A stretch of 64,000 nucleotides of DNA, taken from positions 6,758,001-6,822,000 of the forward strand of contig NZ_CP108055.1 of assembly GCF_036174265.1 (NCBI RefSeq), read 5' to 3'. The first letter of the stretch is position 1, and every line of letters begins with the position of its first letter. This stretch comes from Streptomyces sp. NBC_00285 (lineage in GTDB: Bacteria; Actinomycetota; Actinomycetes; Streptomycetales; Streptomycetaceae). Positions 27,487 to 56,800 of the stretch are shown piece after piece. The notes under the pieces were generated by a model that saw only the letters and a program-made list of their open reading frames with translations, searched no databases and was not told the DNA's origin. A program made the position numbers and the translations under genes.

Positions 27487-27502
27487 CTACGCGCGTTACG
27501 AT
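27487..27502 (+). promoter_or_regulatory. nucleoside-regulon operator and -10 upstream of the lipoprotein gene
   Basis: CTACGCGCGTTA (27487-27498) matches the palindrome CTACGCGCGTAG at 10 of 12 positions and runs into a TACGAT -10 hexamer (27497-27502). About 100 bases of leader follow before GTG 27603. The rest of 27351-27602 has no other feature I can support. Confidence 0.55.
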
Positions 27503-27602
27503 GCCGCGAAGCCGACGCCGCAGGGGCGTCCAGGCCCGGGCACTGGCATGGTGCTCACATGAAGCGCCGACAAGGCGCTCAGGTCAGGTGAAGGAGCCTC
27601 CC

Positions 27603-28667
27603 GTGCGCCGGGTAGCCAAGCTTTCCGCTGCGTGTATCGCAACCGCAGCTCTCGCACTGACTGCCACAGCCTGTGGCAGCACCTCCTCCGAGAACGACAG
27701 CCCGTCCTCCTCCTCGTCTTCGGACGGCGGCAAGGGCAGCATCAAGATCGGCCTCGCCTACGACGTCGGCGGCCGTGGCGACCGCTCCTTCAACGACTCC
27801 GCCGCGCGCGGTGCCGACAAGGCCGAGAAGGAGTTCGGCGGTTCCATCAAGGAACTGACCGCCAAGAGCTCCGACACCGAGGCCGACCGCGAGCAGCGCC
27901 TGACCGACCTCGCCGACGCCGGCTACAACCCGATCGTCGCCATCGGCTTCTCCTACGCCACCTCGGTCGACAAGGTCGCCGCCAAGTACCCGAAGGTCAA
28001 CTTCGGCCTCATCGACGCGGTCGCGACCGCCAAGAACGTCGACAGCATCACCTTCACCGAGGAGCAGGGTTCCTACCTGGCCGGTGTCGCCGCGGCGCTG
28101 AAGACAAAGAAGGACCACGTCGGCTTCATCGGCGGCGTGGACACCCCGCTGATCAAGAAGTTCGAGGCGGGCTACGCCCAGGGCGTCAAGGACACCAACC
28201 CCAAGGTCAAGGTCGACGTCCAGTACCTGACCCACGGCTCGGACTTCTCCGGATTCGCCAGCCCCGACAAGGGCAAGGAGGCCGCGTCCGGCATGCTCGA
28301 CAACGGCGCGGACGTCATCTACGCCGCCGCCGGCTCCTCCGGCAACGGCTCGATCGAGGCCGTCTCCGGCGTCAAGGGCGCCTGGGCCATCGGCGTGGAC
28401 TCGGACCAGTACAACATCCAGGGTCTGAGCAAGTACAAGGCGTCGATCCTCACCTCGATGGTCAAGAACGTCGACGTCGGCGTCTACGACTTCATCAAGT
28501 CCGTCAAGGACGGCAAGCCGCTGACCGGCAACCAGATCTACTCCCTCGCCAAGGGCGGTGTCGGCCTGGCCACCAGCGGTGGCTTCATCGACGACATCCA
28601 GACCCAGCTGGACGCCGCGAAGAAGAAGATCGTCGACGGCACCATCAAGGTCAAGACCACCACGTGA
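27603..28667 (+). CDS. BMP/PnrA-family nucleoside-binding lipoprotein
   Basis: A 354-residue substrate-binding lipoprotein of the Med/BMP (PnrA) family, which captures purine and pyrimidine nucleosides outside the membrane. The signal peptide ends in the lipobox LTATAC (Cys24), followed by a Ser-rich linker (about 25-45). The mature part has GLAYDVGGRGDRSFNDSA, IGFSYATSVDKVA, VGFIGGVDTPLIKKFEAGY and GVDSDQYN, all typical of the family. GTG 27603 has AAGGAG six bases upstream. It is separated from the ABC genes by hairpins, which may let the binding protein be made in excess. Confidence 0.93.
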   Translation: MRRVAKLSAACIATAALALTATACGSTSSENDSPSSSSSSDGGKGSIKIGLAYDVGGRGDRSFNDSAARGADKAEKEFGGSIKELTAKSSDTEADREQRLTDLADAGYNPIVAIGFSYATSVDKVAAKYPKVNFGLIDAVATAKNVDSITFTEEQGSYLAGVAAALKTKKDHVGFIGGVDTPLIKKFEAGYAQGVKDTNPKVKVDVQYLTHGSDFSGFASPDKGKEAASGMLDNGADVIYAAAGSSGNGSIEAVSGVKGAWAIGVDSDQYNIQGLSKYKASILTSMVKNVDVGVYDFIKSVKDGKPLTGNQIYSLAKGGVGLATSGGFIDDIQTQLDAAKKKIVDGTIKVKTTT

Positions 28668-28673
28668 CCTGAC

Positions 28674-28731
28674 GGTTCCCGCGGGAACCGCGGCTCGGCG
28701 AGGGGGCGTTCACCCACCCCCTCGCCGAGCC
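28674..28731 (+). terminator. two consecutive hairpins between lipoprotein and ABC genes
   Basis: A 16-bp palindrome GGTTCCCGCGGGAACC (28674-28689) is followed by a 15-bp stem (28692-28706 with 28717-28731, 10-base loop). Together they should stop most transcripts from the lipoprotein gene. Confidence 0.8.
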
Positions 28732-28748
28732 ATAACAATGTGTCAACT

Positions 28749-28760
28749 CTACGCGTGTAG
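28749..28760 (+). promoter_or_regulatory. nucleoside-regulon operator upstream of the ABC transporter operon
   Basis: CTACGCGTGTAG differs from CTACGCGCGTAG at one position. It overlaps the -35 region expected for a TAGCGT hexamer at 28776-28781. Confidence 0.65.
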
Positions 28761-28835
28761 CACCGAGTTGCCGCGCTAGCGTCGCCGACGCCTGCCCTCC
28801 CCTATGCAGCCCCTTTCCCCCGAGGAGAGTGCGCC

Positions 28836-30395
28836 ATCAACGCGTCCAGCCCTCCAGCTGCCGTCGAACTGCGCGGCATCACCAAGCGATTCCCCGGCGT
28901 CGTCGCCAACAAGGACATCGACATCACCGTCCGCACGGGCACCGTGCACGCCCTGTGCGGTGAGAACGGCGCCGGCAAGTCCACCCTGATGAAGATCCTC
29001 TACGGCATGCAGCAGCCGGACGAGGGCACCATCACGGTGAACGGCGAGACGGTCACCTTCAGCAACCCCGCCGACGCCATCGCCCGCGGCATCGGCATGG
29101 TGCACCAGCACTTCATGCTGGCCGACAACCTCACCGTCCTCGAGAACGTCGTCCTCGGTGCGGAGAAGCTGTACGGCATCGGCGGCAAGGCCCGCGCGAA
29201 GATCAAGGAGGTCTCCGACGCGTACGGCCTGAACGTACGCCCGGACGTCCTGCTGGAGGAGCTCGGCGTCGCCGACCGCCAGCGGGTGGAGATCCTCAAG
29301 GTCCTCTACCGCGGCGCCAAGACCCTCATCCTCGACGAGCCCACCGCCGTCCTCGTGCCGCAGGAGGTCGACGCCCTCTTCGACAACCTGCGCGGGATGA
29401 AGGCCGAGGGCCTCACGGTCATCTTCATCTCCCACAAGCTGGGCGAAGTCCTGTCCGTGGCCGACGAGATCACCGTCATCCGCCGCGGCACCACCGTCGG
29501 CACGGTCGAGCCGGCCGGCACCACCACCAAGCAGCTCGCCGAGCTGATGGTCGGCAGCGAACTGCCCACGCCGGAGACCGAGGAGTCGACGGTCACCGAC
29601 GTCCCGCTGCTGAAGCTGGACGGACTGCGCCTGGCCCAGACCGACCTCGACGGCGTCGAGCGCGTCGTCCTCGACGACATCACCTTCACCATCCACCAGG
29701 GTGAGGTCCTCGGCATCGCCGGCGTGGAGGGCAACGGCCAGTCGGAACTGGTCGAGGCGATCATGGGCATCCGTGACCCGGACGCCGGCGTCATCACGCT
29801 GGGCGACACCGACATCTCCCACGTCCCCACCCGCCGCCGCCGCGAGGCCGGCGTCGGTTACATCCCGGAGGACCGTCACCGCCACGGCCTGCTCCTGGAA
29901 GCCCCGCTGTGGGAGAACCGCATCCTCGGCCACGTCACCGAGAGGCCCAACTCCCGCGGCCAGCTGCTCGACATCAAGGCGGCCCGCACCGACACCGAGC
30001 GCATCATCGAGGCGTACGACGTCCGTACCCCCGGCATCGACGTCACCGCCGCCTCCCTGTCCGGCGGCAACCAGCAGAAGCTGATCGTCGGCCGCGAGAT
30101 GAGCCACGCGCCCAAGCTGCTCATCGCCGCCCACCCCACCCGCGGTGTGGACGTCGGCGCGCAGGCCGCGATCTGGGACCACATCCGCGAGGCCCGCCGC
30201 GAGGGCCTGGCCGTGCTGCTGATCTCCGCCGACCTGGACGAGCTCATCGGCCTCTCCGACACCCTGCGGGTGATGTACCGCGGCCGTCTGGTCGCCGACG
30301 CCGACCCCGCCACGATCACCCCCGAGGAGCTCGGCTCCGCCATGACGGGTGCGGCCACCGGCCACCTGGAGCACGCAGAGGACGACGCCCGATGA
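28836..30395 (+). CDS. nucleoside ABC importer ATPase, apparent ATC start codon
   Basis: A tandem ABC ATPase of the CUT2/BmpB type (519 residues if started at ATC 28836). The first cassette has ELRGITKRFPGVVANKDID, Walker A at 42-50 (GENGAGKST) and LILDEPTAVL. The second has a degenerate Walker A (GVEGNGQSE), LSGGNQQKL and AAHPTRGVD. No ATG, GTG or TTG lies in frame upstream of Walker A except GTG 28944, which would delete the first two strands. GAGGAG (28822-28827) sits eight bases before ATC 28836, so non-canonical initiation is the best explanation. It overlaps the first permease gene by ATGA. Confidence 0.9.
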   Translation: MNASSPPAAVELRGITKRFPGVVANKDIDITVRTGTVHALCGENGAGKSTLMKILYGMQQPDEGTITVNGETVTFSNPADAIARGIGMVHQHFMLADNLTVLENVVLGAEKLYGIGGKARAKIKEVSDAYGLNVRPDVLLEELGVADRQRVEILKVLYRGAKTLILDEPTAVLVPQEVDALFDNLRGMKAEGLTVIFISHKLGEVLSVADEITVIRRGTTVGTVEPAGTTTKQLAELMVGSELPTPETEESTVTDVPLLKLDGLRLAQTDLDGVERVVLDDITFTIHQGEVLGIAGVEGNGQSELVEAIMGIRDPDAGVITLGDTDISHVPTRRRREAGVGYIPEDRHRHGLLLEAPLWENRILGHVTERPNSRGQLLDIKAARTDTERIIEAYDVRTPGIDVTAASLSGGNQQKLIVGREMSHAPKLLIAAHPTRGVDVGAQAAIWDHIREARREGLAVLLISADLDELIGLSDTLRVMYRGRLVADADPATITPEELGSAMTGAATGHLEHAEDDAR

Positions 30396-31519
30396 AGAAG
30401 CTGACCCAACGCATCGACAGGGAGCGGCTGCTCCTGGGCCTCGCGGCGCCGCTGCTCGCGATCGTCGCCGCGCTCGTCGTCACCACCCTGGTGATCCTCG
30501 CCACCGGCAAGAACCCGGGCGCCGCGTTCAGCGACATGCTGACCTACGGCACCGCCAGCGACAGCCAGGTCTACATCCTCAACAAGGCGACGACGTACTA
30601 CCTGGCGGGCGTCGCGGTGGCCATCGGCTTCCGCATGAACCTGTTCAACATCGGCGTCGACGGCCAGTACCGGATCGCCGCGTTCTTCGCCGCCGTCCTC
30701 GGCGGCGCACTGACCACGCCCGGCTGGATCTCCATCCCGCTGATCATCCTGTGCGCCATGGGCACCGGCGCCGTGTGGGCGGCCATCGCGGGCATCCTCA
30801 AGGTGACCCGCGGGGTCAGCGAGGTCATCTCGACGATCATGCTCAACTCGATCGCCACCGCGATCATCGCCTACCTGCTCCAGCCCGGAAAACTCGCCGA
30901 ACTCCAGGCCGGCGGCACGGTCGTCTCCACCAAGCCGCTGCCGAAGTCGTCGTACTTCTTCCAGATCGACACTGGCGCGGCCGGCGAGCTGTGGGGCTTC
31001 ATCGTCATCGCCGTGCTCGTCGGGGTGGCGTACTGGTTCGTCCTTGGCCGCACCCGGTTCGGCTTCGACCTGCGCACCGTCGGCCAGTCCGAGTCGGCCG
31101 CCGCCGCGAGCGGTGTGTCCGTGAAGAAGATGATCGCCACCAGCATGGTCATCTCGGGCGCGGTGGCCGGTCTCATCGGCATGCCGACCCTGCTCAACGA
31201 CAGCCACCAGTTCAGCAACGACTTCCCGACCGGCATCGGCTTCACGGGTATCGCCATCGCGCTGCTCGGCCGCAACAACCCGGTGGGCATCGCGCTGGGC
31301 GCGCTGCTGTGGGGCTTCCTGGAGCGCACCACCAACCACCTCGAGTTCGAGGGCTACGACAAGGAAATCCTCGGCGTCATCCAGGGCGTCATCGTCCTGT
31401 GCGTCGTCATCGCCTATGAGGTCGTACGCCGCTACGGCCTGAAGCGCCAGCAGCAGCGGGTCGGCGCCGAGCTCGCCGCCCAGGCCGCGGCCCCGACCCA
31501 GAAGCAGGAGGTGGCGTGA
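30392..31519 (+). CDS. nucleoside ABC importer permease 1
   Basis: A 375-residue inner-membrane permease of the branched-chain/CUT2-like family (PnrC/BmpC type). There are about nine hydrophobic helices. The family's cytoplasmic coupling region lies near LRTVGQSESAAAASGVSVKK, and FTGIAIALLGRNNPVGI lies near the C-terminus. ATG 30392 overlaps the ATPase stop (ATGA). It pairs with the second permease encoded immediately downstream to form the heterodimeric channel. Confidence 0.9.
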   Translation: MKKLTQRIDRERLLLGLAAPLLAIVAALVVTTLVILATGKNPGAAFSDMLTYGTASDSQVYILNKATTYYLAGVAVAIGFRMNLFNIGVDGQYRIAAFFAAVLGGALTTPGWISIPLIILCAMGTGAVWAAIAGILKVTRGVSEVISTIMLNSIATAIIAYLLQPGKLAELQAGGTVVSTKPLPKSSYFFQIDTGAAGELWGFIVIAVLVGVAYWFVLGRTRFGFDLRTVGQSESAAAASGVSVKKMIATSMVISGAVAGLIGMPTLLNDSHQFSNDFPTGIGFTGIAIALLGRNNPVGIALGALLWGFLERTTNHLEFEGYDKEILGVIQGVIVLCVVIAYEVVRRYGLKRQQQRVGAELAAQAAAPTQKQEVA

Positions 31520-32805
31520 TGACTGCCACGATGACCGACACACCGCCGCCCGCGGCGCCCAAGGCGGACAACGCCGGCCCCCGTTCGGGCCGTTCGGTCG
31601 GCCAGATCCTGATGATCGTCGCCGGCGCGCTGCTGCTCGTCGCCGCGGTCCGGGTCATCTCCGGCTCCGACCAGCTCACCTCCGAGGGCCAGGTCTCCGC
31701 CGCGCTCAGCCTCGCCGTGCCGATCGGCCTCGCGGGCCTGGCCGGTCTGTGGTCCGAGCGGTCCGGCGTCGTCAACATCGGCCTCGAAGGCATGATGATC
31801 CTCGGCACCTTCGGCGCCGGCTGGATCGGCTGGCAGACCAACCCCTGGCTCGGCCTGCTGTGCGGCATCGGCTTCGGAGTCGTCGGCGGCCTGGTGCACG
31901 CGGTCGCGACCGTCACCTTCGGCGTCGACCACATCGTCTCCGGTGTCGCGATCAACCTGCTCGCGGTGGGCACCACCCAGTACCTCGCCAAGCTCTTCTT
32001 CACCGAGGGCAAGGCGGCCGACGCGGGTGCCAACCCCAAGCAGTCCCCGCCCGTGGACTCGCTGCCCACCTTCGACGTACCGGGCCTGTCGAGCGGACTG
32101 CACTCCATCGAGAACCACCACTGGTTCCTGATCTCCGACATCGCCGGCATCCTCGGCGGCTTCGTCACCGACCTGTCCGTGGTGACGGTCCTGGTGATCG
32201 CGCTGTTCGTGGGCAGCTGGTGGCTGCTGTGGCGCACCCCGTTCGGTCTGCGCCTGCGCTCCTGCGGTGAGAACCCGATCGCCGCGGAGTCCCTCGGCGT
32301 CAACGTCTACCGGTACAAGTACGCGGCCGTGGCCGTCTCAGGTGGCCTCGCCGGCCTCGGCGGCGCCTTCCTGGCGCTCGTCACCTCGCACACCTACCTG
32401 GAGGGCCAGACCGGCGGACGCGGCTACATCGGTCTCGCCGCCATGATCTTCGGCAACTGGCGGCCCGGCGGCCTCGCCATGGGCGCGGGCCTGTTCGGCT
32501 ACTCCGACGCACTGCAGCTGCGCAACGGCGGCGAGACCGTCCACGCGCTGCTCCTGCTGCTGTTCGTGCTGCTCATCGCGATGGCCGGCTGGAAGCTGTA
32601 CAAGAAGGCACTGGTCCAGGGCGTGATCAGCGCGGTCGTGGCCGTGGCGGTCCTGGTCTGGTACCTGACCACCGACGAGGTCCCCAGCGACTTCGTGGGC
32701 GCCACCCCGTACGTCGTCACACTGCTGGTGCTGTCGCTGTCCGCGCAGCGCCTGCGGATGCCCAAGGCGGACGGCATGCGCTACCGGAAGGGCCAGGGCA
32801 AGTGA
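31519..32805 (+). CDS. nucleoside ABC importer permease 2
   Basis: A 428-residue permease of the same family. A hydrophilic Pro-rich N-terminus is followed by about ten helices with WSERSGVVNIGLEGMMILG and the coupling segment LRSCGENPIAAESLGVNV. GRGYIGLAAMIFGNWRPGG is a strong family mark. ATG 31519 is favoured over GTG 31516 because AGGAGGT (31505-31511) is seven bases upstream. It shares one base with the upstream stop (TGATG) and overlaps cdd downstream (GTGA). Confidence 0.9.
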   Translation: MTATMTDTPPPAAPKADNAGPRSGRSVGQILMIVAGALLLVAAVRVISGSDQLTSEGQVSAALSLAVPIGLAGLAGLWSERSGVVNIGLEGMMILGTFGAGWIGWQTNPWLGLLCGIGFGVVGGLVHAVATVTFGVDHIVSGVAINLLAVGTTQYLAKLFFTEGKAADAGANPKQSPPVDSLPTFDVPGLSSGLHSIENHHWFLISDIAGILGGFVTDLSVVTVLVIALFVGSWWLLWRTPFGLRLRSCGENPIAAESLGVNVYRYKYAAVAVSGGLAGLGGAFLALVTSHTYLEGQTGGRGYIGLAAMIFGNWRPGGLAMGAGLFGYSDALQLRNGGETVHALLLLLFVLLIAMAGWKLYKKALVQGVISAVVAVAVLVWYLTTDEVPSDFVGATPYVVTLLVLSLSAQRLRMPKADGMRYRKGQGK

Positions 32806-33194
32806 CGGACATCGACTGGGAGGCGCTGCGGGCGGCGGCCCGAGCCGCCATGTCCCGGGCGTACGCCCCGTACTCCGGCTACCCGGTCGGCGTGGCGGCC
32901 CTGGTCGACGACGGCCGTACGATCACCGGCTGCAACGTCGAGAACGCCTCCTACGGCGTCGGCCTGTGCGCCGAGTGCGGTCTGGTCTCGGAGCTGCAGA
33001 ACACCGGGGGCGGGCGCCTCACCCACTTCACGTGCGTGGACGGGCGGGGCGAGGTCCTCGTCCCCTGCGGCCGCTGCCGCCAGCTGCTGTACGAGTTCGG
33101 CGGACCCGACCTGATCATGGAGACCCCGGCGGGCATCCTGCCGCTGTCGGAGATGCTCCCGCAGGCCTTCGGGCCGGACCATCTCACCAAGTAA
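32802..33194 (+). CDS. cdd: cytidine deaminase
   Basis: A 130-residue homotetrameric-type cytidine/deoxycytidine deaminase. Zinc ligands are C56 in CAE (with catalytic Glu58) and C89/C92 in PCGRC. The substrate segment GCNVENASYG is intact. It converts imported cytidine and deoxycytidine to uridine forms for phosphorolysis. The GTG start overlaps the permease stop by four bases, tying deamination to uptake in one transcript. Confidence 0.95.
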   Translation: MTDIDWEALRAAARAAMSRAYAPYSGYPVGVAALVDDGRTITGCNVENASYGVGLCAECGLVSELQNTGGGRLTHFTCVDGRGEVLVPCGRCRQLLYEFGGPDLIMETPAGILPLSEMLPQAFGPDHLTK

Positions 33195-33202: not shown

Positions 33203-33245
33203 CGGCCCCTCCGAGCCGGTCATGCCCCATGGCCCGGAGGGGCCG
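33203..33245 (+). terminator. hairpin between cdd and deoA
   Basis: CGGCCCCTCCG (33203-33213) pairs with its exact complement (33235-33245) over a 21-base loop. deoA begins 29 bases later without an obvious own promoter, so the hairpin probably attenuates or stabilises mRNA. Confidence 0.65.
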
Positions 33246-33273
33246 TCGCTTTGAACGTTCTGGAAGGAAAGCC

Positions 33274-34566
33274 ATGGCGCTGTTGTCGATGGATGTCATC
33301 TCCGTGATCCGTACCAAGCGGGACCGCGGTGAACTCAGCGACGAGCAGATCGACTGGGTCATCGACGCGTACACCCGCGGAGAGGTCGCCGACGAACAGA
33401 TGTCCGCGCTCGCGATGGCGATCCTGCTCAACGGCATGAACCGCCGTGAGATCGCCCGCTGGACGGCCGCGATGATCGCCTCCGGCGAGCGCATGGACTT
33501 CTCCTCGCTGTCCCGCCCGACCGCCGACAAGCACTCCACGGGCGGCGTCGGCGACAAGATCACGCTGCCGCTTGCGCCCCTGGTGGCGGCCTGCGGCGCG
33601 GCCGTGCCCCAGCTCTCGGGCCGGGGCCTCGGCCACACCGGCGGCACCCTGGACAAGCTGGAGTCGATCCCCGGCTGGCGCGCGCTGCTGTCCAACGAGG
33701 AGATGCTGAACGTCCTCGACACCACCGGCGCGGTGATCTGCGCTGCGGGCGACGGCCTGGCCCCCGCCGACAAGAAGCTGTACGCCCTGCGGGACGTCAC
33801 CGGCACGGTCGAGGCGATCCCCCTGATCGCCTCCTCCATCATGTCGAAGAAGATCGCGGAGGGGACGGGGTCCCTGGTCCTGGACGTGAAGGTCGGCACC
33901 GGCGCCTTCATGAAGACCATCGAGGACGCCCGCGAGCTGGCGTCGACGATGGTCGGCCTGGGCACGGACCACGGCGTGAAGACGGTGGCCCTGCTGACGG
34001 ACATGTCGACCCCGCTGGGCCTGACGGCGGGCAACGCCCTTGAGATCCGCGAGTCGGTGGAGGTCCTGGCGGGCGGCGGCCCCTCCGACGTGGTCGAGCT
34101 GACCCTCGCCCTGGCCCGCGAGATGCTGGCCGCGGCGGGCGTCCGTGACGTCGACCCGGCGAAGGCCCTGGCCGACGGCTCGGCGATGGACGTGTGGCGC
34201 CGGATGATCGCGGCCCAGGGCGGCGACCCGGACGCCTCGTTGCCGGTGGCCCGCGAGCAGCACGTCATCAGGGCCACGACCTCGGGCGTCCTGACCCGGC
34301 TCGACGCCTACGGCATCGGCGTCGCCGCCTGGCGCCTCGGCGCGGGCCGGGCCCGCAAGGAGGACCCGGTTCAGGCGGGCGCGGGCGTGGAGATGCACGC
34401 CAAGCCCGGCGACACGGTGACGGAGGGCCAGCCCCTCCTGACCCTCCACACCGACACCCCGGAACGCTTCGAGTACGCCCTGAAGTCGATCGAGGGTTCC
34501 TACGACATCGCGGCGGCGGGTACGGCTTTCACGGCGTCGCCGGTGGTGCTGGAGCGCATCGCCTGA
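33274..34566 (+). CDS. deoA: thymidine phosphorylase
   Basis: A 430-residue pyrimidine nucleoside phosphorylase. The signature SGRGLGHTGGTLDKLESIPG is complete, and the phosphate-binding KHSTGGVGDK and the C-terminal alpha/beta domain are present. It splits thymidine and deoxyuridine to base and deoxyribose-1-phosphate. ATG 33274 has GGAAGGAAA just upstream. It is probably co-transcribed from the ABC promoter through cdd, and feeds the mutase and aldolase encoded 16-21 kb to the right. Confidence 0.95.
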   Translation: MALLSMDVISVIRTKRDRGELSDEQIDWVIDAYTRGEVADEQMSALAMAILLNGMNRREIARWTAAMIASGERMDFSSLSRPTADKHSTGGVGDKITLPLAPLVAACGAAVPQLSGRGLGHTGGTLDKLESIPGWRALLSNEEMLNVLDTTGAVICAAGDGLAPADKKLYALRDVTGTVEAIPLIASSIMSKKIAEGTGSLVLDVKVGTGAFMKTIEDARELASTMVGLGTDHGVKTVALLTDMSTPLGLTAGNALEIRESVEVLAGGGPSDVVELTLALAREMLAAAGVRDVDPAKALADGSAMDVWRRMIAAQGGDPDASLPVAREQHVIRATTSGVLTRLDAYGIGVAAWRLGAGRARKEDPVQAGAGVEMHAKPGDTVTEGQPLLTLHTDTPERFEYALKSIEGSYDIAAAGTAFTASPVVLERIA

Positions 34567-40407: not shown

Positions 40408-40429
40408 CTACGCGCGTAGGCGTTAGAGT
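40408..40429 (+). promoter_or_regulatory. add promoter with nucleoside-regulon operator
   Basis: A perfect CTACGCGCGTAG palindrome (40408-40419) lies in the promoter spacer, five bases upstream of TAGAGT (40424-40429). ATG 40436 follows six bases later. Confidence 0.75.
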
Positions 40430-40435: not shown

Positions 40436-41599
40436 ATGACGAGCCAGACTGACCGGACGGGGAACGCCCCGAGCTCGGACCAGATCCGCCGAGCACCCAA
40501 GGTTCTGCTGCACGATCACCTCGACGGCGGGCTGCGCCCCGGCACCGTCGTCGACCTCGCCCGGGAGGCCGGGTACTCCGGGCTCCCCGAGACCGACGCG
40601 GACCGGCTGGGCGTCTGGTTCCGCGAGGCCGCCGACTCCGGTTCGCTGGAGCGGTACCTGGAGACCTTCTCGCACACCGTCGGCGTCATGCAGACCCGCG
40701 AGGCCCTCGTCCGGGTCGCCGCCGAGTGCGCCGAGGACCTCGCCGAGGACGGCGTCGTCTACGCCGAGGTGCGGTACGCCCCCGAACAGCATCTCGAAAA
40801 GGGCCTGACCCTCGAAGAGGTCGTCGAGGCCGTCAACGAGGGCTTCCGGGAAGGCGAGCGAAGGGCCAGGGCGAACGGTCACCGCATCCGCGTCGGCGCC
40901 CTGCTCACCGCCATGCGGCACGCGGCCCGCGCCCTGGAGATCGCCGAACTCGCCAACCGCTACCGGGACCTGGGTGTGGTGGGCTTCGACATCGCGGGCG
41001 CCGAGGCCGGGTTCCCGCCCACCCGGCACCTCGACGCCTTCGAGTACCTCAAGCGCGAGAACAACCACTTCACCATCCACGCAGGCGAGGCCTTCGGGCT
41101 GCCGTCCATCTGGCAGGCCCTGCAGTGGTGCGGCGCCGACCGGCTCGGGCACGGTGTGCGCATCATCGACGACATCCAGGTCCACGAGGACGGCACGGTC
41201 AAGCTCGGCCGGCTCGCCTCGTACGTCCGGGACAAGCGGATCCCGCTGGAGCTGTGCCCCAGCTCCAACCTCCAGACCGGGGCCGCGTCCTCGTACGCCG
41301 AGCACCCGATCGGACTGCTCCGGCGGCTGCACTTCAGGGCGACCGTGAACACCGACAACCGACTGATGTCCGGGACCGGAATGAGCCGGGAATTCGAGCA
41401 CCTTGTCGACGCGTTCGGTTATACGCTCGATGATCTGCAGTGGTTCTCCGTCAATGCGATGAAATCAGCGTTCATTCCTTTCGATGAACGACTCGCGATG
41501 ATCAGTGACGTCATCAAGCCCGGATACGCCGAGCTGAAGTCCGAATGGCTGTTCCAGCAGACCGCCTCCACCAGCGGTTCTGTGGTCGAGGGTGGCTGA
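40436..41599 (+). CDS. add: adenosine deaminase
   Basis: A 387-residue zinc deaminase that turns adenosine and deoxyadenosine into inosine forms. HDHLDG at 26-31 supplies two zinc His. [10 protein letters not shown] gives zinc His and catalytic Glu, GHGVRI the base-contacting His, and NTDNRL the zinc Asp region. Length is slightly above the usual 340-360 because of a short N-terminal extension and a Ser-rich tail. The promoter carries the shared nucleoside operator, linking it to the transporter and phosphorylase genes. Confidence 0.95.
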
Positions 41600-45288: not shown

Positions 45289-45962
45289 TGAGGCGTGTCC
45301 AGCCGGTAGCCCACGCCCCGCACGGTACGGATCAGCGTCGGGGACGACGGCACGTCCTCGACCTTGGCGCGCAGCCGCTGCACACAGGCGTCCACCAGGC
45401 GCGAGTCACCGAGGTAGTCGTGCTCCCACACCAGCCGCAGCAACTGCTGCCGCGACAGGGCCTGGCCGGGCCTGCGGCTCAGCTCCAGGAGCAGCCTCAG
45501 CTCGGTGGGGGTGAGCTGCAGGTCCTCGCCGTTCTTCGTGACGGTCATCGCCGCGCGGTCGATGACCAGGGAGCCGAAGCTCGCCGCGTCGGTCGACTCG
45601 CGTTCCCCGCGGCGCAGCACGGCCCGGATGCGGGCGTCCAGCACCCGCCCCTGGATCGGCTTGACGACATAGTCGTCGGCGCCGGACTCCAGTCCGACGA
45701 CGATGTCGATGTCGTCGCTGCGCGCGGTCAGCAGAATGATCGGCAGCTGGTCCGTGCGCCGGATACGCCGGCACACCTCGAACCCGTCGATGCCGGGCAG
45801 CATCACGTCCAGCACGATCAGGTCGGGCCGCTGCTCACGGAGCAGTTTCAGACCGTCCTCACCGGTGGCAGCGGTGGCAACCCGGTGGCCCTGGCGCGTA
45901 AGGGACAGCTCCAGGGCCGTGCGGATGGCGTCGTCGTCCTCGATCAGCAACAGGGAAGGCAC
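45285..45962 (-). CDS. afsQ1: response regulator AfsQ1
   Basis: A 225-residue OmpR/PhoB-type regulator. The receiver has acidic pocket EDDD near 8-11, phospho-acceptor Asp52 (LIVLDVMLPG), a Thr and a Lys in KPIQ. The C-terminal winged helix (about 130-222) ends TLIRTVRGVGYRLD. GTG 45962 gives the length I recall for S. coelicolor AfsQ1. It probably binds the GTGAC repeat at 46069-46084 to control sigQ and itself. Confidence 0.95.
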   Translation of the reverse strand: MPSLLLIEDDDAIRTALELSLTRQGHRVATAATGEDGLKLLREQRPDLIVLDVMLPGIDGFEVCRRIRRTDQLPIILLTARSDDIDIVVGLESGADDYVVKPIQGRVLDARIRAVLRRGERESTDAASFGSLVIDRAAMTVTKNGEDLQLTPTELRLLLELSRRPGQALSRQQLLRLVWEHDYLGDSRLVDACVQRLRAKVEDVPSSPTLIRTVRGVGYRLDTPQ

Positions 45963-46068
45963 GGGCTCATTCTGGCCCATGGAGGGGGTGCTGTTCGACC
46001 TGTGGGCCGCGGCAGTCCCTAAGGCATTCATCAATGACCCTCCTGTGCAATTCCTGAGACGGGCCCCT

Positions 46069-46084
46069 GTGACAGGTCTGTGAC
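46069..46084. promoter_or_regulatory. AfsQ1 binding site between afsQ1 and sigQ
   Basis: GTGAC-AGGTCT-GTGAC fits the published AfsQ1 consensus GTNAC-N6-GTNAC exactly. It lies in the divergent gap between afsQ1 (start 45962) and sigQ (start 46216). Confidence 0.8.
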
Positions 46085-46215
46085 AGTCGGCGGACACAGC
46101 GATGAAGTGGCGGCGGCAGAGTTCTCGGCACAGGCAAGGAAGCACCGCGGAACACCAGCGGCGGACCGGAACCTGAGCAAGCCGAACACCGGAAGTCCAC
46201 GACGGGGGGCGCGAG

Positions 46216-46959
46216 ATGAACACGCTGCACAGCACCAGCACTAGCGCAGTGATCACGCGTCTCCACGACGTGAACGGGGGCCGGGGTTCCGAGAAGTCCG
46301 GTGCCGTGGGCGGGCGGGGGTGCGCTCGCGGCGCTGGGCGTCAGCACACCGGGTACATGTCGGTGGTTGACAGCGGTACGGGGGAAGCGCACGGGGGATC
46401 GTCGTACAGGGAGGACACGGGGGAGCGGCATTCGCTGTCGGAGGCGGAGTTCACCGCCTACGTCCAGGAGCGCCGCGCCTCCCTGTACGCCACCGCGTAC
46501 CACCTGACCGGTGACCGCTTCGAGGCCGAGGACCTGCTGCAGAGCGCGCTGTTCTCGACGTACCGGGCGTGGGAGCGGATCAGTGACAAGGCCGCGGTCG
46601 GGGGCTACCTCCGCCGCACCATGACCAACCTGCACATCAGCGCGTGGCGCCGCCGCAAGCTGAACGAGTACCCGACCGAGGAACTGCCGGAGACGCCCGG
46701 CGACACGGACGCGATGCGCGGCACCGAACTGCGCGCGGTCCTGTGGCAGGCGCTCGCCCGGCTCCCCGAACTCCAGCGCACGATGCTGGTCCTTCGTTAC
46801 TACGAGGGCCGCACCGACCCGGAGATCGCGGAGATCCTCGACATCAGTGTCGGCACGGTGAAGTCCAGCATCTGGCGGTCACTCCGCCGGCTGCGCGAGG
46901 ACGAGGTCCTCAGCTTCGGCCGTGACGAGGAGAACGCCTTCGGGGAGCTCGTCGCCTGA
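46216..46959 (+). CDS. sigQ: RNA polymerase sigma factor SigQ (SigE-type ECF)
   Basis: A 247-residue ECF sigma factor. A variable Gly/Ser-rich N-terminal lead (about 1-75) precedes region 2 (LYATAYHLTGDRFEAEDLLQSA). Region 4 reads LPELQRTMLVLRYYEGRTDPEIAEILD and VGTVKSSIWRSLRRLRE. In S. coelicolor sigQ is divergent from afsQ1 and antagonises antibiotic production under AfsQ1 control, the same layout as here. ATG 46216 opens the frame; downstream starts (for example M48) are possible. Confidence 0.92.
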   Translation: MNTLHSTSTSAVITRLHDVNGGRGSEKSGAVGGRGCARGAGRQHTGYMSVVDSGTGEAHGGSSYREDTGERHSLSEAEFTAYVQERRASLYATAYHLTGDRFEAEDLLQSALFSTYRAWERISDKAAVGGYLRRTMTNLHISAWRRRKLNEYPTEELPETPGDTDAMRGTELRAVLWQALARLPELQRTMLVLRYYEGRTDPEIAEILDISVGTVKSSIWRSLRRLREDEVLSFGRDEENAFGELVA

Positions 46960-48424: not shown

Positions 48425-49333
48425 TCAGTACGCCGAGCCCGACGCGCCCAGCGAACCCGTCGGGTGCCAGACCGTCTTCGTCTCCAGGAAGGCCGTCAGA
48501 CGGTCGGTGCCCGGAGTCGCCGTCCAGTTGTCCACAGGCTGTGGACGCAGGACGCGCTTCAGGTTGTCCGCCGCCGCGATCTCCAGCTCCTTGGCCAGGA
48601 TCTCGTCCGCGCCCGCCAGGTCGATCGCGTTGACGTCCTGGTGGGACGCCAGGGTGGGCGCGATCTCCGCCGTACGGCCCGAGAGGACGTTGACCACGCC
48701 TCCGGGGACGTCCGAGGTGGCCAGGACCTCGCCCAGCGAGAGGGCGGGGAGGGGGGACCTCTCGGAGGCCACGACGATCGCCGTGTTGCCCGTCGCGATC
48801 ACCGGGGCCAGTACCGAGACCAGGCCCAGGAACGACGACTCCTGCGGGGCCAGTACGGCCACCACGCCGGTCGGCTCCGGGGAGGACAGGTTGAAGTACG
48901 GGCCCGCGACCGGGTTGCCGCCGCCCACCACCTGGGCGATCTTGTCGGTCCAGCCCGCGTACCAGACCCAGCGGTCGACGGCCGCCTCGACCTGCTCGGC
49001 CGCCCTGGCCTTCGACAGGCCCTCGGCGTCGGCCACCTCCTGGACGAACTGCGCCCTGCGGCCCTCCAGCATCTCCGCGACGCGGTACAGGACCTGGCCG
49101 CGGTTGTACGCCGTCGCGCCGGACCAGCCGCCGACCGCCTTGCGCGCGGCCACGACCGCGTCACGGGCGTCCTTGCGGGAGGACTGCGGTGCGTTCGCCA
49201 GCCACTTGCCCTTTGCGTCGGTCACCTCGTACACCCGGCCGCTCTCGGAACGCGGGAACTTGCCCCCGACGTACAGCTTGTAGGTCTTGAAGACCGACAG
49301 ACGCGGCTCGGTCTTCTCGTTCTTCTCAGACAT
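48425..49333 (-). CDS. half-length aldehyde dehydrogenase-family protein
   Basis: A 302-residue protein with only the N-terminal, NAD-binding half of an aldehyde dehydrogenase. It has YKLYVGGKFPRSESGR, QVEAAVDRWVWYAGW, GVVAVLAPQESSFLGLVS and VPGGVVNVLSGR, then stops after about 45 more residues. The catalytic domain with the active-site Cys is missing. Its start overlaps the full-length enzyme's stop by eight bases (ATGTCTGA), so both are made together, possibly as a heteromer. Conserved length of this partner in actinobacteria is from memory. Not a fragment caused by a frameshift: the stop is clean and followed by an intergenic repeat. Confidence 0.85.
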   Translation of the reverse strand: MSEKNEKTEPRLSVFKTYKLYVGGKFPRSESGRVYEVTDAKGKWLANAPQSSRKDARDAVVAARKAVGGWSGATAYNRGQVLYRVAEMLEGRRAQFVQEVADAEGLSKARAAEQVEAAVDRWVWYAGWTDKIAQVVGGGNPVAGPYFNLSSPEPTGVVAVLAPQESSFLGLVSVLAPVIATGNTAIVVASERSPLPALSLGEVLATSDVPGGVVNVLSGRTAEIAPTLASHQDVNAIDLAGADEILAKELEIAAADNLKRVLRPQPVDNWTATPGTDRLTAFLETKTVWHPTGSLGASGSAY

Positions 49334-50762
49334 CGAGGTACGCCTCCAGGCCGTGGCGGCCGCCCTCGCGGCCGAAGCCCGACTCCTTGTAGCCGCCGAA
49401 CGGCGACGTCGGGTCGAACTTGTTGAACGTGTTGGACCAGACGACCCCGGCCCGGAGTTTGTTCGCCACCGCCAGGATCCGCGAACCCTTCTCCGTCCAG
49501 ATGCCCGCCGAGAGGCCGTACTGGGTGTTGTTGGCCTTGGCGACGGCCTCGTCCGGGGTGCGGAAGGTCAGCACGGACAGGACCGGGCCGAAGATCTCGT
49601 CCCTGGCGATGGTGTGCGCCTGGGTGACGTTGGTGAAGAGCGTCGGGGCGAACCAGTAGCCGGAGGACGGGAGTTCACACTCCGGCGACCAGGGTTCGGC
49701 GCCCTCGGCCGTGCCCTTCTCGACGAGCGAGGTGATCCGCGCGAGCTGCTCGGCGGAGTTGATCGCGCCGATGTCGGTGTTCTTGTCGAGCGGGTCGCCC
49801 AGGCGAAGGGTGGACAGGCGGCGCTTGAGGGAGTCCAGCAGCTCGTCCTGGATCGACTCCTGGACGAGGAGGCGGGAGCCCGCGCAGCAGACCTGGCCCT
49901 GGTTGAAGAAGATGCCGGTGACGATCCCCTCCACCGCCTGGTCGATCGGGGCGTCGTCGAAGACGATGTTGGCGCCCTTGCCGCCCAGTTCCAGGGTGAG
50001 CTTCTTACGGGTGCCCGCGACGGTCCGCGCGATCTCCTTGCCGACGCCCGTGGAGCCGGTGAAGGCCACCTTGTTGACGTCCGGGTGCGCGACGAGCGCG
50101 GCCCCAGTGTCGCCGTAGCCCGGAAGGATGTTGACGACGCCCTTGGGCAGGCCGGCCTGGCGGCAGATGTCCGCGAAGAAGAGCGCGGACAGGGGAGTGG
50201 TCTCCGCGGGCTTCAGCACCACCGTGTTGCCGGTGGCGAGGGCCGGGGCGATCTTCCACGCCAGCATCAGGAGCGGGAAGTTCCAGGGGATGACCTGGCC
50301 GGCGACGCCGAGGGGCTTCGGGCTTGCGCCGAATCCGGCGTGCTCCAGCTTGTCGGCCCAGCCCGCGTAGTAGAAGAAGTGCGCGGCGACCAGGGGCAGG
50401 TCGGTGTCGCGGGTCTCCTTGATGGGCTTGCCGTTGTCCAGGGTCTCCAGGACGGCCAGCTCGCGGCTGCGTTCCTGGATGATCCGGGCGATGCGGAACA
50501 GGTACTTGGCGCGCTCGGAGCCCGGCAGCGCCGACCACTTCTCGAAGGCCCTGCGGGCGGCCGCCACCGCGCGGTCGACGTCCGCCTCGCCCGCCTGGGC
50601 GATCTCGGACAGGACCTCCTCGGTGGACGGCGAGACGGTCTTGAAGACCTTGCCTTCGGCCGCCTCCACGAACTCGCCGTCGATGAACAGGCCGTAGGAG
50701 GGGGCGATGTCGACGACCGAGCGGGACTCGGGCGCCGGGGCGTACTCAAAAACGGAAGCCAT
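49326..50762 (-). CDS. aldehyde dehydrogenase (NAD-dependent)
   Basis: A 478-residue full aldehyde dehydrogenase. It has YFYYAGWADKLEH-like substrate lead, PWNFPLLMLAWKIAPALATGN, GSTGVGKEI, the catalytic Glu in LELGGKGANIVF and the active-site Cys in FFNQGQVCCAGSRL. EIFGPVLSV and PFGGYKESGFGREGG complete the fold. Encoded five bases after deoC, it probably oxidises acetaldehyde released by the aldolase. The half-length paralogue follows in the operon. Confidence 0.93.
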   Translation of the reverse strand: MASVFEYAPAPESRSVVDIAPSYGLFIDGEFVEAAEGKVFKTVSPSTEEVLSEIAQAGEADVDRAVAAARRAFEKWSALPGSERAKYLFRIARIIQERSRELAVLETLDNGKPIKETRDTDLPLVAAHFFYYAGWADKLEHAGFGASPKPLGVAGQVIPWNFPLLMLAWKIAPALATGNTVVLKPAETTPLSALFFADICRQAGLPKGVVNILPGYGDTGAALVAHPDVNKVAFTGSTGVGKEIARTVAGTRKKLTLELGGKGANIVFDDAPIDQAVEGIVTGIFFNQGQVCCAGSRLLVQESIQDELLDSLKRRLSTLRLGDPLDKNTDIGAINSAEQLARITSLVEKGTAEGAEPWSPECELPSSGYWFAPTLFTNVTQAHTIARDEIFGPVLSVLTFRTPDEAVAKANNTQYGLSAGIWTEKGSRILAVANKLRAGVVWSNTFNKFDPTSPFGGYKESGFGREGGRHGLEAYLDV

Positions 50763-50767: not shown

Positions 50768-51733
50768 TCAGTCCACCGTCACGTAGTCGGGGCCGGAGTA
50801 GCGGCCGGTGGCCAGCTTCTGACGCTGCATCAGCAGGTCGTTCAGGAGCGAGGAGGCGCCGAAGCGGAACCAGTGGTTGTCCAGCCAGTCCTCGCCGACG
50901 GTCTCGTTGACCAGCACGAGGAACTTGACCGCGTCCTTGGTCGTACGGATGCCGCCGGCCGGCTTCACACCCACCTGCACCCCGGTCTGGGCGCGGAAGT
51001 CGCGCACCGCCTCCAGCATGAGGAGGGTGTTGGGGGGAGTGGCGTTGACCGCGACCTTGCCGGTGGACGTCTTGATGAAGTCCGCGCCCGCCAGCATGCC
51101 GAGCCAGCTCGCGCGGCGGATGTTGTCGTACGTCGACAGCTCGCCGGTCTCGAAGATGACCTTGAGCCGGGCGGCCGTCCCGCAGACCTCGCGGACGGCG
51201 ACGATCTCCTCGTACACCTTCAGATACCGGCCCGAGAGGAACGCCCCGCGGTCGATGACCATGTCGACCTCGTCGGCACCGGCGGACACGGCGTCGCGCA
51301 CGTCGGCGAGCTTCACGTCCAGGGCGGCACGGCCGGCCGGGAAGGCGGTGGCCACGGAGGCGATCTTGACGCCGGAACCGGCGACGGCCTCCTTCGCGAC
51401 GGCCACCATGTCGGGATAGACGCAGACGGCCGCCGTCGCCGGGGCCGTGCGGTCGGTCGGGTCGGGGCGGACCGCCTTGGCGCCGAGCGCCCGGACCTTG
51501 CCCGGGGTGTCCGCGCCTTCCAGCGTCGTCAGGTCGACCATCGAGATGGCGAGGTCGATGGCGTACGCCTTCGCGGTCGTCTTGATGGAACGCGTACCGA
51601 GCGAGGCGGCACGCGCCTCCAGTCCGACCGCGTCCACGCCGGGCAGCCCGTGAAGGAACCGGCGCAGCGTGCTGTCGGACGCGGTCACGTCCGTGAGCGG
51701 ATGTACGGCTGATGCAGTGGTGGGCATGGTCAC
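50768..51733 (-). CDS. deoC: deoxyribose-phosphate aldolase
   Basis: A 321-residue class I aldolase splitting 2-deoxyribose-5-phosphate to glyceraldehyde-3-phosphate and acetaldehyde. AAVCVYPDMV, VATAFPAGRAALDVKLADV, GADEVDMVIDRGAFLSG and the Schiff-base Lys in DFIKTSTGK are all present, with VKPAGGIRT. It is about 60-100 residues longer than E. coli DeoC, as in other actinobacterial long forms. GTG 51733 follows TATGCT by six bases; ATG 51727 is the alternative. The promoter carries a perfect nucleoside operator. Confidence 0.94.
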   Translation of the reverse strand: MTMPTTASAVHPLTDVTASDSTLRRFLHGLPGVDAVGLEARAASLGTRSIKTTAKAYAIDLAISMVDLTTLEGADTPGKVRALGAKAVRPDPTDRTAPATAAVCVYPDMVAVAKEAVAGSGVKIASVATAFPAGRAALDVKLADVRDAVSAGADEVDMVIDRGAFLSGRYLKVYEEIVAVREVCGTAARLKVIFETGELSTYDNIRRASWLGMLAGADFIKTSTGKVAVNATPPNTLLMLEAVRDFRAQTGVQVGVKPAGGIRTTKDAVKFLVLVNETVGEDWLDNHWFRFGASSLLNDLLMQRQKLATGRYSGPDYVTVD

Positions 51734-51739
51734 CAGCCG

Positions 51740-51758
51740 AGCATATCTACGCGCGTAG
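51740..51758 (-). promoter_or_regulatory. deoC promoter with nucleoside-regulon operator
   Basis: A perfect CTACGCGCGTAG (51747-51758) lies one base upstream of TATGCT (51745-51740 on the minus strand), which precedes GTG 51733 by six bases. Occupancy would block the promoter core. Confidence 0.75.
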
Positions 51759-52533: not shown

Positions 52534-52601
52534 CCTCGTAGGGAGTGCCGCTGTCGTCGGGCGGCTTCGGGGCCGTCAGTTTTCTCCGGACCCGCCTGTC
52601 C

Positions 52602-53994: not shown

Positions 53995-55626
53995 TCAGAT
54001 GCCGGCCGCCGCCGACAGGTCCTGCTTGATGGAGGTCAGGAGGTCGGCCGCCTCGGTGCGGGCCGTCGGGAGCTCCGCGTGGGTGGCCACCGGGATCACC
54101 ACCTCCAGGTAGCACTTCAGCTTCGGCTCGGTGCCGCTCGGGCGGACGATGACCCGGGCGCCGGTGAGGGTGTAGCGCAGGCCGTCGGTGGGCGGGAGCC
54201 GGTCCGTGCCCCGGGTGAGGTCCTCCGCCCGGGTGACGGGCAGGCCGGCGAGTTCCGTCGGCGGGTGCTCGCGGAGTCGCTCCATCGCCGTGGCGATGAC
54301 CGACAGGTCCTCCACGCGGACCGAGAGCTGGTCGGTGGCGTGCAGCCCGTGCTCCACGGCGATGTCGTCGAGGAGGTCCAGGAGCGTGCGGTCCTGTTCC
54401 TTGAGCTCGGAGGCCAGCTCCGTGATGAGAAGGGCCGCGGTGATGCCGTCCTTGTCGCGCACGCCCTGTGGGTCCACGCAGTAGCCGAGGGCCTCCTCGT
54501 AGCCGTAGCGCAGGCCCTCCACGCGGGCGATCCACTTGAAGCCCGTGAGGGTCTCCTCGTAGGGGAGTCCTGCCTTCTCGGCGATCCGGCCGAGGAGGGA
54601 GGAGGAGACGATCGACTCGGCGAACGTGCCCTGGGCTCCGCGCCTCACGAGGTGAGCGGCGAGCAGGGTGCCGACCTCGTCGCCGCGGAGCATGCGCCAG
54701 TCGCCGTCGGCCCTCACGGCCACCGCGCAGCGGTCCGCGTCCGGGTCGTTCGCGATGATCAGGTCGGGGGCCGTCTCGCGGGCCTTCGCGAAGGCCAGGT
54801 CCATCGCGCCGGGCTCTTCCGGGTTGGGGAAGGCGACGGTCGGGAAGTCGGGGTCGGGGTCGGCCTGTTCGGCGACGAGCTCCGGGGCGGGGAAGCCGGC
54901 GCGGGCGAACGCCGCGAGGAGGGTCTCCTTGCCGACGCCGTGCATCGCGGTGTAGACGGTGCGGGCGGTGCGCGGGGAGTCCGCGGCGAGGACGGCGTCC
55001 GTGCGGGCCAGGTAGGCGTCCAGGACGGCGTCGTCGAGGGTCTGCCAGCCGGTCTCCGGGCGGGGGACGTCGTGCAGGCTCGCGATCGCGTCGATCTCGG
55101 CGGCGATCTCCGCGTCGGCGGGCGGGACGATCTGGGAGCCGTCGCCGAGGTACACCTTGTAGCCGTTGTCGCGGGGCGGGTTGTGGCTCGCGGTCACCTC
55201 CACGCCGGCGACCGCGCCCAGGTGCCTTATGGCGAACGCCAGCACGGGGGTGGGGAGGGGACGGGGGAGGACCGCCGCCCTCAGGCCCGCGCCGGTCATC
55301 ACGGCCGCCGTGTCCCTCGCGAAGTCGGCGGACTTGTGGCGGGCGTCGTAGCCGATGACGACCAGGCCGTCCTCGCTGCCGTGCTTCCTGAGGTACGCCG
55401 CGAGGCCGGCGGCGGCCCGGATGACGACCGCGCGGTTCATGCGCTGGGGGCCGGCGCCGAGTTCGCCGCGCAGGCCGGCGGTGCCGAACTGGAGGGTGCC
55501 GCTGAAGCGTGCGGTGAGCTCGGTGACGTCACCGGCGTCGAGGAGCTTGGCGAGCTCGTCGCGGGTGTCCGGGTCGGGGTCCTCGGCGAGCCAGGTCCTG
55601 GCCCGGGCGATGAGATCGTCGTGCAC
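53995..55626 (-). CDS. phosphohexomutase-family phosphosugar mutase, candidate phosphopentomutase
   Basis: A 543-residue alpha-D-phosphohexomutase. It has GTAGLRGELGAGPQRMN, the phospho-Ser loop VTASHNPPRDNGYKVY, the metal loop NDPDADRC, the sugar loop EEALGYCVD and C-terminal VRPSGTEPKLK. Such enzymes are annotated as phosphomannomutase, but in many actinobacteria the group includes pentose-1-phosphate mutases. Lying beside purine nucleoside phosphorylase and near deoC, with no AlkP-type deoB in the window, it may convert (deoxy)ribose-1-P to 5-P. GTG 55626 has GGAGG six bases upstream. Confidence 0.88.
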   Translation of the reverse strand: MHDDLIARARTWLAEDPDPDTRDELAKLLDAGDVTELTARFSGTLQFGTAGLRGELGAGPQRMNRAVVIRAAAGLAAYLRKHGSEDGLVVIGYDARHKSADFARDTAAVMTGAGLRAAVLPRPLPTPVLAFAIRHLGAVAGVEVTASHNPPRDNGYKVYLGDGSQIVPPADAEIAAEIDAIASLHDVPRPETGWQTLDDAVLDAYLARTDAVLAADSPRTARTVYTAMHGVGKETLLAAFARAGFPAPELVAEQADPDPDFPTVAFPNPEEPGAMDLAFAKARETAPDLIIANDPDADRCAVAVRADGDWRMLRGDEVGTLLAAHLVRRGAQGTFAESIVSSSLLGRIAEKAGLPYEETLTGFKWIARVEGLRYGYEEALGYCVDPQGVRDKDGITAALLITELASELKEQDRTLLDLLDDIAVEHGLHATDQLSVRVEDLSVIATAMERLREHPPTELAGLPVTRAEDLTRGTDRLPPTDGLRYTLTGARVIVRPSGTEPKLKCYLEVVIPVATHAELPTARTEAADLLTSIKQDLSAAAGI

Positions 55627-55685
55627 GGTTGCCTCCGGCGGTTGGGCGGGTTCTATGGTGCGGGTTCGGTGGGGGCGGGCGTTTT

Positions 55686-55897
55686 GCGCAGTTCCCCGCG
55701 CCCCTGTATCGCCTGCGGCGTCGTTGTGGGTCGGGGCCGGGGTGGGGGGTGTCCGTCCTCGGTCCGGCGGCTCGGTTCCTTGAGCAGTGCTCGGTTTCGG
55801 ACGCCGGCCGCTGCGGGCGGACACCCCCCACCCCGTCCCCTTCGCGCCGTCGGCGGCTGCGGGTGCGTCGGGCTTTTAGGGGCGCGGGGAACTGCGC
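55686..55897. repeat. inverted REP-like pair in a 312-bp gene-free stretch
   Basis: GCGCAGTTCCCCGCGCC (55686-55702) is mirrored at 55881-55897. The sequence between and around (55627-55938) has no coding bias I can support. It separates the phosphorylase and mutase genes and could form large hairpins in the transcript. Confidence 0.75.
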
Positions 55898-55938
55898 GAT
55901 CAGCCCCCACCGGGCCGCGGCCGGCCGGCGCCGTACCT

Positions 55939-56763
55939 TCAGAGGCGGTCCAGGACCTGGGCCAGCAGGGAACCCATCCGGGTTGCCGAGTCACGGCCTG
56001 CCTGGAGGACCTCCTCGTGGTTCAGCGGCTCGCCCGTCATGCCCGCCGCGAGGTTGGTGACCAGGGAGATGCCCAGTACCTCCGCACCCGCCTCACGCGC
56101 GGCGATCGCCTCCAGGACCGTCGACATGCCCACCAGGTCCGCGCCGATCACGCGGGCCATGCGGATCTCGGCCGGGGTCTCGTAGTGCGGGCCGGGGAAC
56201 TGGGCGTAGACGCCCTCCTCCAGGCTCGCGTCGATCTCCTTGCACAGGGCGCGCAGGCGGGGGGAGTAGAGGTCCGTGAGGTCGACGAAGTTCGCGCCGA
56301 TGATGGGGGACGTCGCCGTGAGGTTGATGTGGTCGCTGATCAGGACCGGCTGGCCGGGCCGCATGCCCTCGCGGAGGCCGCCGCAGCCGTTGGTGAGGAC
56401 CACCGTCTTGCAGCCGGCGGCGACGGCGGTGCGGACGCCGTGCGCGACGGCGGCGACACCGCGGCCCTCGTAGTAGTGCGTACGGCCCAGGAAGACCAGG
56501 GCGCGCTTGTCGCCCATCTTGTACGAGCGGATCGTGCCGCCGTGTCCCTCCACCGCCGGCGGCGGGAAACCGGGCAGGTCGGTGACCGGGAACTCGGCGT
56601 CGGGTGCACCGAGCGCGTCCACCGCGGGGGCCCAGCCGGAGCCCATCACGAGGGCGACGTCGTGGGTCTCGGCGCCCGTCAGTTCGCGCAGGCGCGTGGC
56701 GGCGGCGTCCGCGGCGGTGTGGGGGTCGCCCTGGATGTCGTCCGGAAGAAGAGATGCGTTCAC
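55939..56763 (-). CDS. purine nucleoside phosphorylase
   Basis: A 274-residue trimeric-type purine nucleoside phosphorylase. It has [13 protein letters not shown], the phosphate-binding [15 protein letters not shown], the active-site [12 protein letters not shown] with VGMSTV, and [10 protein letters not shown]. It splits inosine, guanosine and deoxy forms to base and pentose-1-phosphate. GTG 56763 follows TACCCT by seven bases, so it is probably leaderless. The promoter carries a perfect nucleoside operator. The mutase that would use its product lies next to it. Confidence 0.94.
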
Positions 56764-56770
56764 GCGCCTG

Positions 56771-56800
56771 AGGGTAGCCGGTAGATGCCTACGCGCGTAG
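56771..56800 (-). promoter_or_regulatory. purine nucleoside phosphorylase promoter with nucleoside-regulon operator
   Basis: A perfect CTACGCGCGTAG (56789-56800) covers the -35 position for TACCCT (56776-56771 on the minus strand), which is seven bases from GTG 56763. Confidence 0.75.

Follow-up and report, generated by a model that had tools for sequence, protein, structure and literature searches.

Several transcription factors of the LacI family are already known as nucleoside regulators: CytR, UriR, AdeR, HpxR and the bifidobacterial RbsR2 and RbsR3. In enterobacteria, CytR controls nucleoside uptake and catabolism, and PurR, likewise a LacI-family protein, controls purine synthesis; the operators of both are different from the palindrome analyzed here. 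AdeR, HpxR and UriR are described as local LacI-family regulators of nucleoside use (PMC4052901). The RbsR2 and RbsR3 regulons of bifidobacteria include nucleoside hydrolase, transporters and ribokinase, and the RbsR3 consensus, TGATAAAACGTTTTATCA, differs from our palindrome (PMC4746261). For Streptomyces, we found no nucleoside regulon in a search of the open-licence literature. Within that literature, the 12-bp palindrome itself appears in articles that by title treat other subjects (DNA structure; GapR of Caulobacter), and its 10-bp core combined with the word Streptomyces leads to phage telomeres.

We analyzed a stretch of 64,000 nucleotides from Streptomyces sp. NBC_00285 (the window), for which a first-pass annotation had proposed that a palindrome, CTACGCGCGTAG, defines a nucleoside uptake and catabolism regulon of five units, with a DeoR-family protein encoded at 59019 as the candidate regulator. 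The regulon proves strongly supported and wider than five units. We assign a probability of roughly 0.87 to the reading in which a LacI-family repressor, encoded outside the window at C1:5091027-5092046 beside glnR, uses CTACGCGCGTAG as its operator.

Results

Near-exact copies of the palindrome precede nucleoside genes in the window

The features of the nucleoside cluster are as follows.

27487..27498, unstranded: operator variant CTACGCGCGTTA before the PnrA-like lipoprotein gene; same letters in 10/10 other loci
27603..28667, plus strand: PnrA/BMP-type nucleoside-binding lipoprotein gene (PF02608, E 1.4e-62)
28749..28760, unstranded: operator CTACGCGTGTAG before the ABC-cdd-deoA operon; one mismatch
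28836..30395, plus strand: ABC transporter ATPase gene (PF00005), probable AUC start at 28836; start region compared
30392..31519, plus strand: first permease gene (PF02653, E 4.2e-45)
31516..32805, plus strand: second permease gene (PF02653)
32802..33194, plus strand: cytidine deaminase, cdd (PF00383, E 8.6e-13; start inferred)
33229..34566, plus strand: thymidine/pyrimidine-nucleoside phosphorylase, deoA (NF004490, 643.8 bits, cut-off 269)
40408..40419, unstranded: exact operator before add
40436..41599, plus strand: adenosine deaminase, add (NF006847, 643.4 bits, cut-off 412)
49326..50762, minus strand: aldehyde dehydrogenase (PF00171), 5 bp downstream of deoC
50768..51733, minus strand: deoxyribose-phosphate aldolase, deoC (TIGR00126, 178.7 bits, cut-off 117.3)
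51747..51758, unstranded: exact operator before deoC
53995..55824, minus strand: phosphohexo/pentomutase-like (PGM/PMM family) gene downstream of pnp (PF02878, PF02879, PF02880, PF00408)
55939..56763, minus strand: purine nucleoside phosphorylase, pnp (TIGR01698, 341.9 bits, cut-off 302.6)
56789..56800, unstranded: exact operator before pnp
59019..59978, plus strand: DeoR-family regulator, the earlier candidate (PF08220 and PF00455, the DeoRC sensor domain)

A scan of the window placed all five sites where the first-pass annotation had them (27487, 28749, 40408, 51747 and 56789). The 12-mer is indeed exact before add, deoC and pnp, has one mismatch before the ABC-cdd-deoA operon and two before the PnrA-like gene. 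The further claim that the window holds no other copy stands at up to one mismatch and fails at two, where extra places appear at 24320 and 27409. The palindrome is not in the window by chance: the exact 12-mer occurs three times, compared to none in 100 shuffles, and four places have at most one mismatch, compared to 0.15 expected. At up to three mismatches, the window has 24 matches, fewer than the shuffles (mean 44.6), and thus the signal lies only in the near-exact copies and their position.

The sites lie over promoter cores (-35/-10), as judged by eye only, and end 16 bp before the start codon of add, 13 or 19 bp before that of deoC, 25 bp before pnp, 75 bp before the ABC operon and 104 bp before the PnrA gene. 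The weak PnrA site is taken as real because the letters of CTACGCGCGTTA are kept upstream of the PnrA orthologue in all 10 of the other checkable loci, 38-74 bp from its inferred start; as a control, mononucleotide shuffles give a site with at most two mismatches in 1.4%. The -10 of this promoter, read by eye as TTACGAT, seems to share bases with the right half of the site, and this overlap may explain the fixed TTA. A longer symmetric 14-mer, TCTACGCGCGTAGA, was rejected; it is absent from all 119 order genomes and all 396 phylum genomes, and therefore the flanks of the 12-mer form no symmetric 14-mer.

The aldehyde dehydrogenase gene is probably co-transcribed with deoC, and the PGM/PMM-family gene, whose pentose activity is putative, probably with pnp. 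The ABC ATPase frame at 28836 is without ATG, GTG or TTG near its true start. A region (A)GGAGAGTGCG(C/T)C-ATC recurs in the 13 loci compared (two of which are cut at the left end), and some of them have an in-frame GTG further inside; comparison of these loci suggests that translation probably starts at the conserved AUC codon. In the middle of the cluster, at 43714-46956, lie genes for a sensor kinase, a response regulator and an ECF sigma factor, which we take to be afsQ2, afsQ1 and sigQ.

The palindrome is conserved in Streptomycetaceae at nucleoside and purine genes

In the family Streptomycetaceae (81 genomes, 17 genera), the exact 12-mer is found in 80 of 81 genomes, with 263 copies versus 42 for the reversed pattern, while all 45 same-genus genomes from a draw on the order have at least two exact copies (176 versus 18 reversed); the two draws have 15 genomes in common, and such ratios overstate the independent support because the loci share ancestry. 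Two sister families (15 genomes) have three exact copies versus nine reversed. The array of copies repeats over about 25-45 kb in most genomes with listed places.

The first-pass annotation had suggested listing the genes downstream of the palindrome across genomes. We scored 57 family loci, one per genome and all from different genomes, counting a gene when its protein match begins between -30 and 350 bp from the site. In 53 of the 57, the site adjoins the beginning of a nucleoside or purine gene: pnp in 20, add in 13, the ABC ATPase gene in 10, a second add in four, purN in three, and deoC, purSQ and 5'-nucleotidase in one each. The other outcomes were one gene for a secreted protein of unknown role and three loci without a gene match. 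Exact sites away from nucleic-acid genes occur in three of the 57, namely before a gene for a HAD-family hydrolase (L054), inside a long open frame (L082) and by a secreted beta-propeller-like protein (L092). The sister-family loci L048-L050 were excluded from this count; the site of L049 lies inside an IMP dehydrogenase gene, and L050 is similar in look.

The 10.3-Mb genome of our strain has four exact copies, all at nucleoside genes. Three are in the window, and the fourth, at C1:853991, makes up codons 2-6 of another adenosine deaminase gene, the second add (L041:2949-4010). The same arrangement within the second adenosine deaminase gene is seen at L053, L056, L063, L075, L117 and L118. At up to one mismatch, the bulk count in this genome is not raised (32 places, compared to 35 for the reversed pattern); nucleic-acid genes account for 13 of the 32, among them add, the second add, deoC, pnp and ABC-cdd-deoA. 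An ExeM/NucH-like secreted nuclease gene (162.5 bits, below the cut-off of 300) has two near-matches 44 bp apart. Near-matches are also found at two secreted 2',3'-cyclic-nucleotide phosphodiesterase/3'-nucleotidase-like genes, which score 388 and 384 bits against a cut-off of 486, and at a 5'-nucleotidase-like gene, a gene for an NCS2-type nucleobase permease, purSQL, and a carbon-nitrogen hydrolase/aminotransferase/PucR-like regulator operon, the last two members of which were named by eye and which is a probable pyrimidine catabolism operon. Among the remaining 19 places, 11 were flagged inside open frames, and others adjoin PhoX, an oligopeptide-ABC gene, an M23 peptidase or a secreted protein gene; the near-operator by PhoX lies before the phosphatase gene (L028).

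Most of the near-match targets beyond the window recur in other genera. In three small genomes from three genera, for which we read all 50 places with at most one mismatch, near-matches besides the cluster lie upstream of purSQL (L154, L179), permease (L165, L182), nuclease (L157, L174), 5'-nucleotidase (L055, L177) and amidase (L160) genes. Sequence comparison thus strongly supports a predicted regulon that takes in, beyond the units of the window, the secreted nuclease, nucleotidases, the nucleobase permease, purSQL and the probable pyrimidine operon.

Two further sets of targets were seen. Exact operators precede purN-purH in two other genera, g253 and g254 (L104, L106, L107, L108, L111, L114). 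In several genera, an operator or near-match lies by genes of a secreted family marked by RVLFDNTKAETAGNADWIIS (L112:2050-3798, L110:2011-3474, L109, L163 and, in our own genome, L013:509-1438); a Pfam search found no full-length match for this family, a candidate new scavenging enzyme.

A LacI-family gene beside glnR co-occurs with the site array

Among the near-matches in the three small genomes was a one-mismatch copy of the palindrome 9 bp before the start of a LacI-family gene (L171; PF00356 and PF13377). The counterpart of this gene in our genome, at C1:5091027-5092046, lies downstream of glnR and 1.7 Mb from the window; its matches to PF00356, PF13377 and PF00532, all above cut-offs, indicate a LacI helix-turn-helix with a periplasmic-binding-type sensor, and its PDB matches are CcpA, RbsR and PurR. 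All 41 family genomes compared have an orthologue (68-86% identity), and 40 of them have a single match at E≤1e-60. The best matches in the sister families are only 33-37% identical, are found in 7 of 15 genomes and come without the site array. Thus, gene and site array co-occur. One genome (G511) has the LacI gene (69%) without an exact site.

The lacI promoter itself has a half-site, CGCGTAGA(A/C)T, over the likely -10 in 80 of 84 distinct promoters, compared to CGCGTAG in 2 of 84 in the control region at -320..-60. The fuller AC.CGCGTAG is found in 25 of 84, so that most have the half-site only. Autoregulation is common, though not universal, among LacI-family repressors. The operator CTACGC-GCGTAG is an even palindrome with a central CG, the form described for most LacI operators (PMC4052901). 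Compared to its relatives, the sensor domain of the candidate has a 4-residue insertion and FDD for FDG.

A glnR match is found on 83 of the 84 lacI loci, and our own glnR was recognized by PF21695 (GlnR_1st). The candidate is apparently the orthologue of S. coelicolor SCO4158, since the gene order is the same as at glnR/sco4159-SCO4158, where the LacI gene lies directly downstream of glnR; the same source suggests that SCO4158 might regulate glnR (PMC9739823). A predicted ArgR site has been listed for SCO4158 (PMC5839063). In the open-licence passages on SCO4158 that we consulted, we found no nucleoside role or assigned target. A 2012 paper reportedly, by its title, connects SCO4158 with pigment.

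Orthology to PurR, CytR or UriR was ruled out by equivalog cut-offs: the candidate scores 156.5 bits against the PurR model (cut-off 501) and 112.6 bits against the corynebacterial UriR model (cut-off 550), and is also far below the cut-off of the CytR model. A second LacI paralogue, 60-63% identical and with the same recognition helix, occurs in some streptomycetes and kitasatosporas (L252, L257, L263, L268, L298), at loci without a glnR match.

The recognition helix covaries with the half-site among relatives

The LacI subfamily shares the helix AVVSYV-x-N-x-GP(R/K). From 94 relative loci (14 from outside Streptomycetaceae and the best 80 of 588), we used the 48 with the subfamily helix and no detected glnR start; tblastn identifies at least five of them as glnR-type, and these were counted as misses. 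The pattern C[AT]ACnCGnGT[AT]G is found in 27 of these 48 loci, which include loci from the best 80 of 588, in 37 copies, compared to 1 of 48 for the reversed pattern; 21 of 48 are without it. A search of the relatives L232, L237-L239 and L241-L243 found no such palindrome. Neighbours of the relatives identified by Pfam include inosine-uridine nucleoside hydrolase (L230, L231, L253, L259, L280), adenosine deaminase (L236), a PfkB sugar kinase (L235) and an ABC ATPase (L233, L236), with a nucleoside-hydrolase-like match below cut-off at L238.

Among the matches listed, all seven gammaproteobacterial loci (Pantoea, Izhakiella, Serratia, Pluralibacter, Providencia and two of Xenorhabdus) have the 12-mer at no more than one mismatch, four of them exactly. 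In Pantoea, Serratia and Providencia, it lies before a transporter-lacI-nucleoside hydrolase row. The enterobacterial relatives found here could be AdeR or HpxR.

In these alignments, base 2 of the half-site varies together with a residue of the recognition helix. Among the matches listed, L after SYV accompanies the half-site CAAC in 35 cases and CTAC in 9, while I or V accompanies CTAC in 30 and CAAC in none. A similar split is seen for the residue before AVVSYV: where it is P or E, CAAC outnumbers CTAC 27:3, and where it is T or V, CTAC outnumbers CAAC 35:7. The Fisher value of 3e-10 for this first table (27:3 versus 7:35), which excludes L308 (A in the helix, 1:1), is only indicative, since the loci share descent. 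The streptomycete LacI has T before AVVSYV, I after SYV and the half-site CTAC.

Discussion

Genome comparison thus shows the site, its conservation, its targets, its co-occurrence with a LacI gene and the same type of operator beside the relatives of that gene. We compared only LacI and DeoR as candidate readers. The DeoR-family protein at 59019, which would read the palindrome in response to deoxyribose- or ribose-phosphate, has pathway logic in its favor, neighbours pnp, carries a DeoRC sensor domain and is matched by an orthologue in every one of the 81 family genomes, with 73-94% identity outside our strain. It is as universal in the family as the LacI protein, and thus presence alone is not decisive. 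The window scan confirmed that its promoter is without a site, known DeoR operators are longer and different, and the loci of its relatives are nearly without the palindrome: the 215,081 bp of 12 loci in other families contain a single loose match to it, and several of these loci lie beside sugar ABC transporters (by eye). The protein, presumably SCO4920-like, is therefore very unlikely to be the reader, and the LacI protein outside the window fits far better on these comparisons.

It is also unlikely, if a little less so, that the palindrome is read by another regulator of the same specificity, either the second LacI paralogue, with which the candidate shares its recognition helix in some strains, or a member of an unrelated family; 40 of 41 family genomes have a single strong LacI match. 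The position of the sites over promoter cores (by eye) and the inherited synteny of the cluster would also be expected of a structural or promoter element, or of a motif spread only by the shared descent of the cluster. Such an origin is extremely improbable, as the palindrome also precedes unlinked operons (purSQL, purNH, nucleotidases and the second add) and is found in identical form in enterobacteria beside relatives of the regulator.

In the preferred reading, a dimer of the LacI protein would bind the site over or between the promoter hexamers and block RNA polymerase. A breakdown product of nucleic acids (nucleoside, base or ribose) would bind the sensor domain and release the repressor, which would switch on, all at once, the secreted nuclease and nucleotidases along with nucleoside import, deamination and phosphorolysis and the degradation of pentoses. 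The repressor may also tune purSQL and, in some genera, purNH. Unlike CytR and PurR, the candidate seems to bring catabolism, a secreted nuclease and some of purine synthesis under one regulator. We consider it likely that one LacI-type repressor beside glnR is a global switch for nucleic-acid scavenging across the family, that it grew from a local repressor of nucleoside operons, that its 12-bp operator is identical in some enterobacteria, and that base 2 of the half-site is determined by whether SYV is followed by L or by I or V. As far as the open-licence literature was searched, the novelty lies in the palindrome, in the role given to this regulator and in how far the regulon extends, and the scope is unusually wide.

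A conserved regulator for which we found no assigned function thereby gains a list of targets and a predicted operator. The covariation of helix and base is a clean case for the rules of LacI recognition, and the position of the gene next to glnR hints at a connection with nitrogen control. It also becomes testable how streptomycetes tie the supply of purines to the reuse of DNA and RNA that come from dead hyphae or soil.
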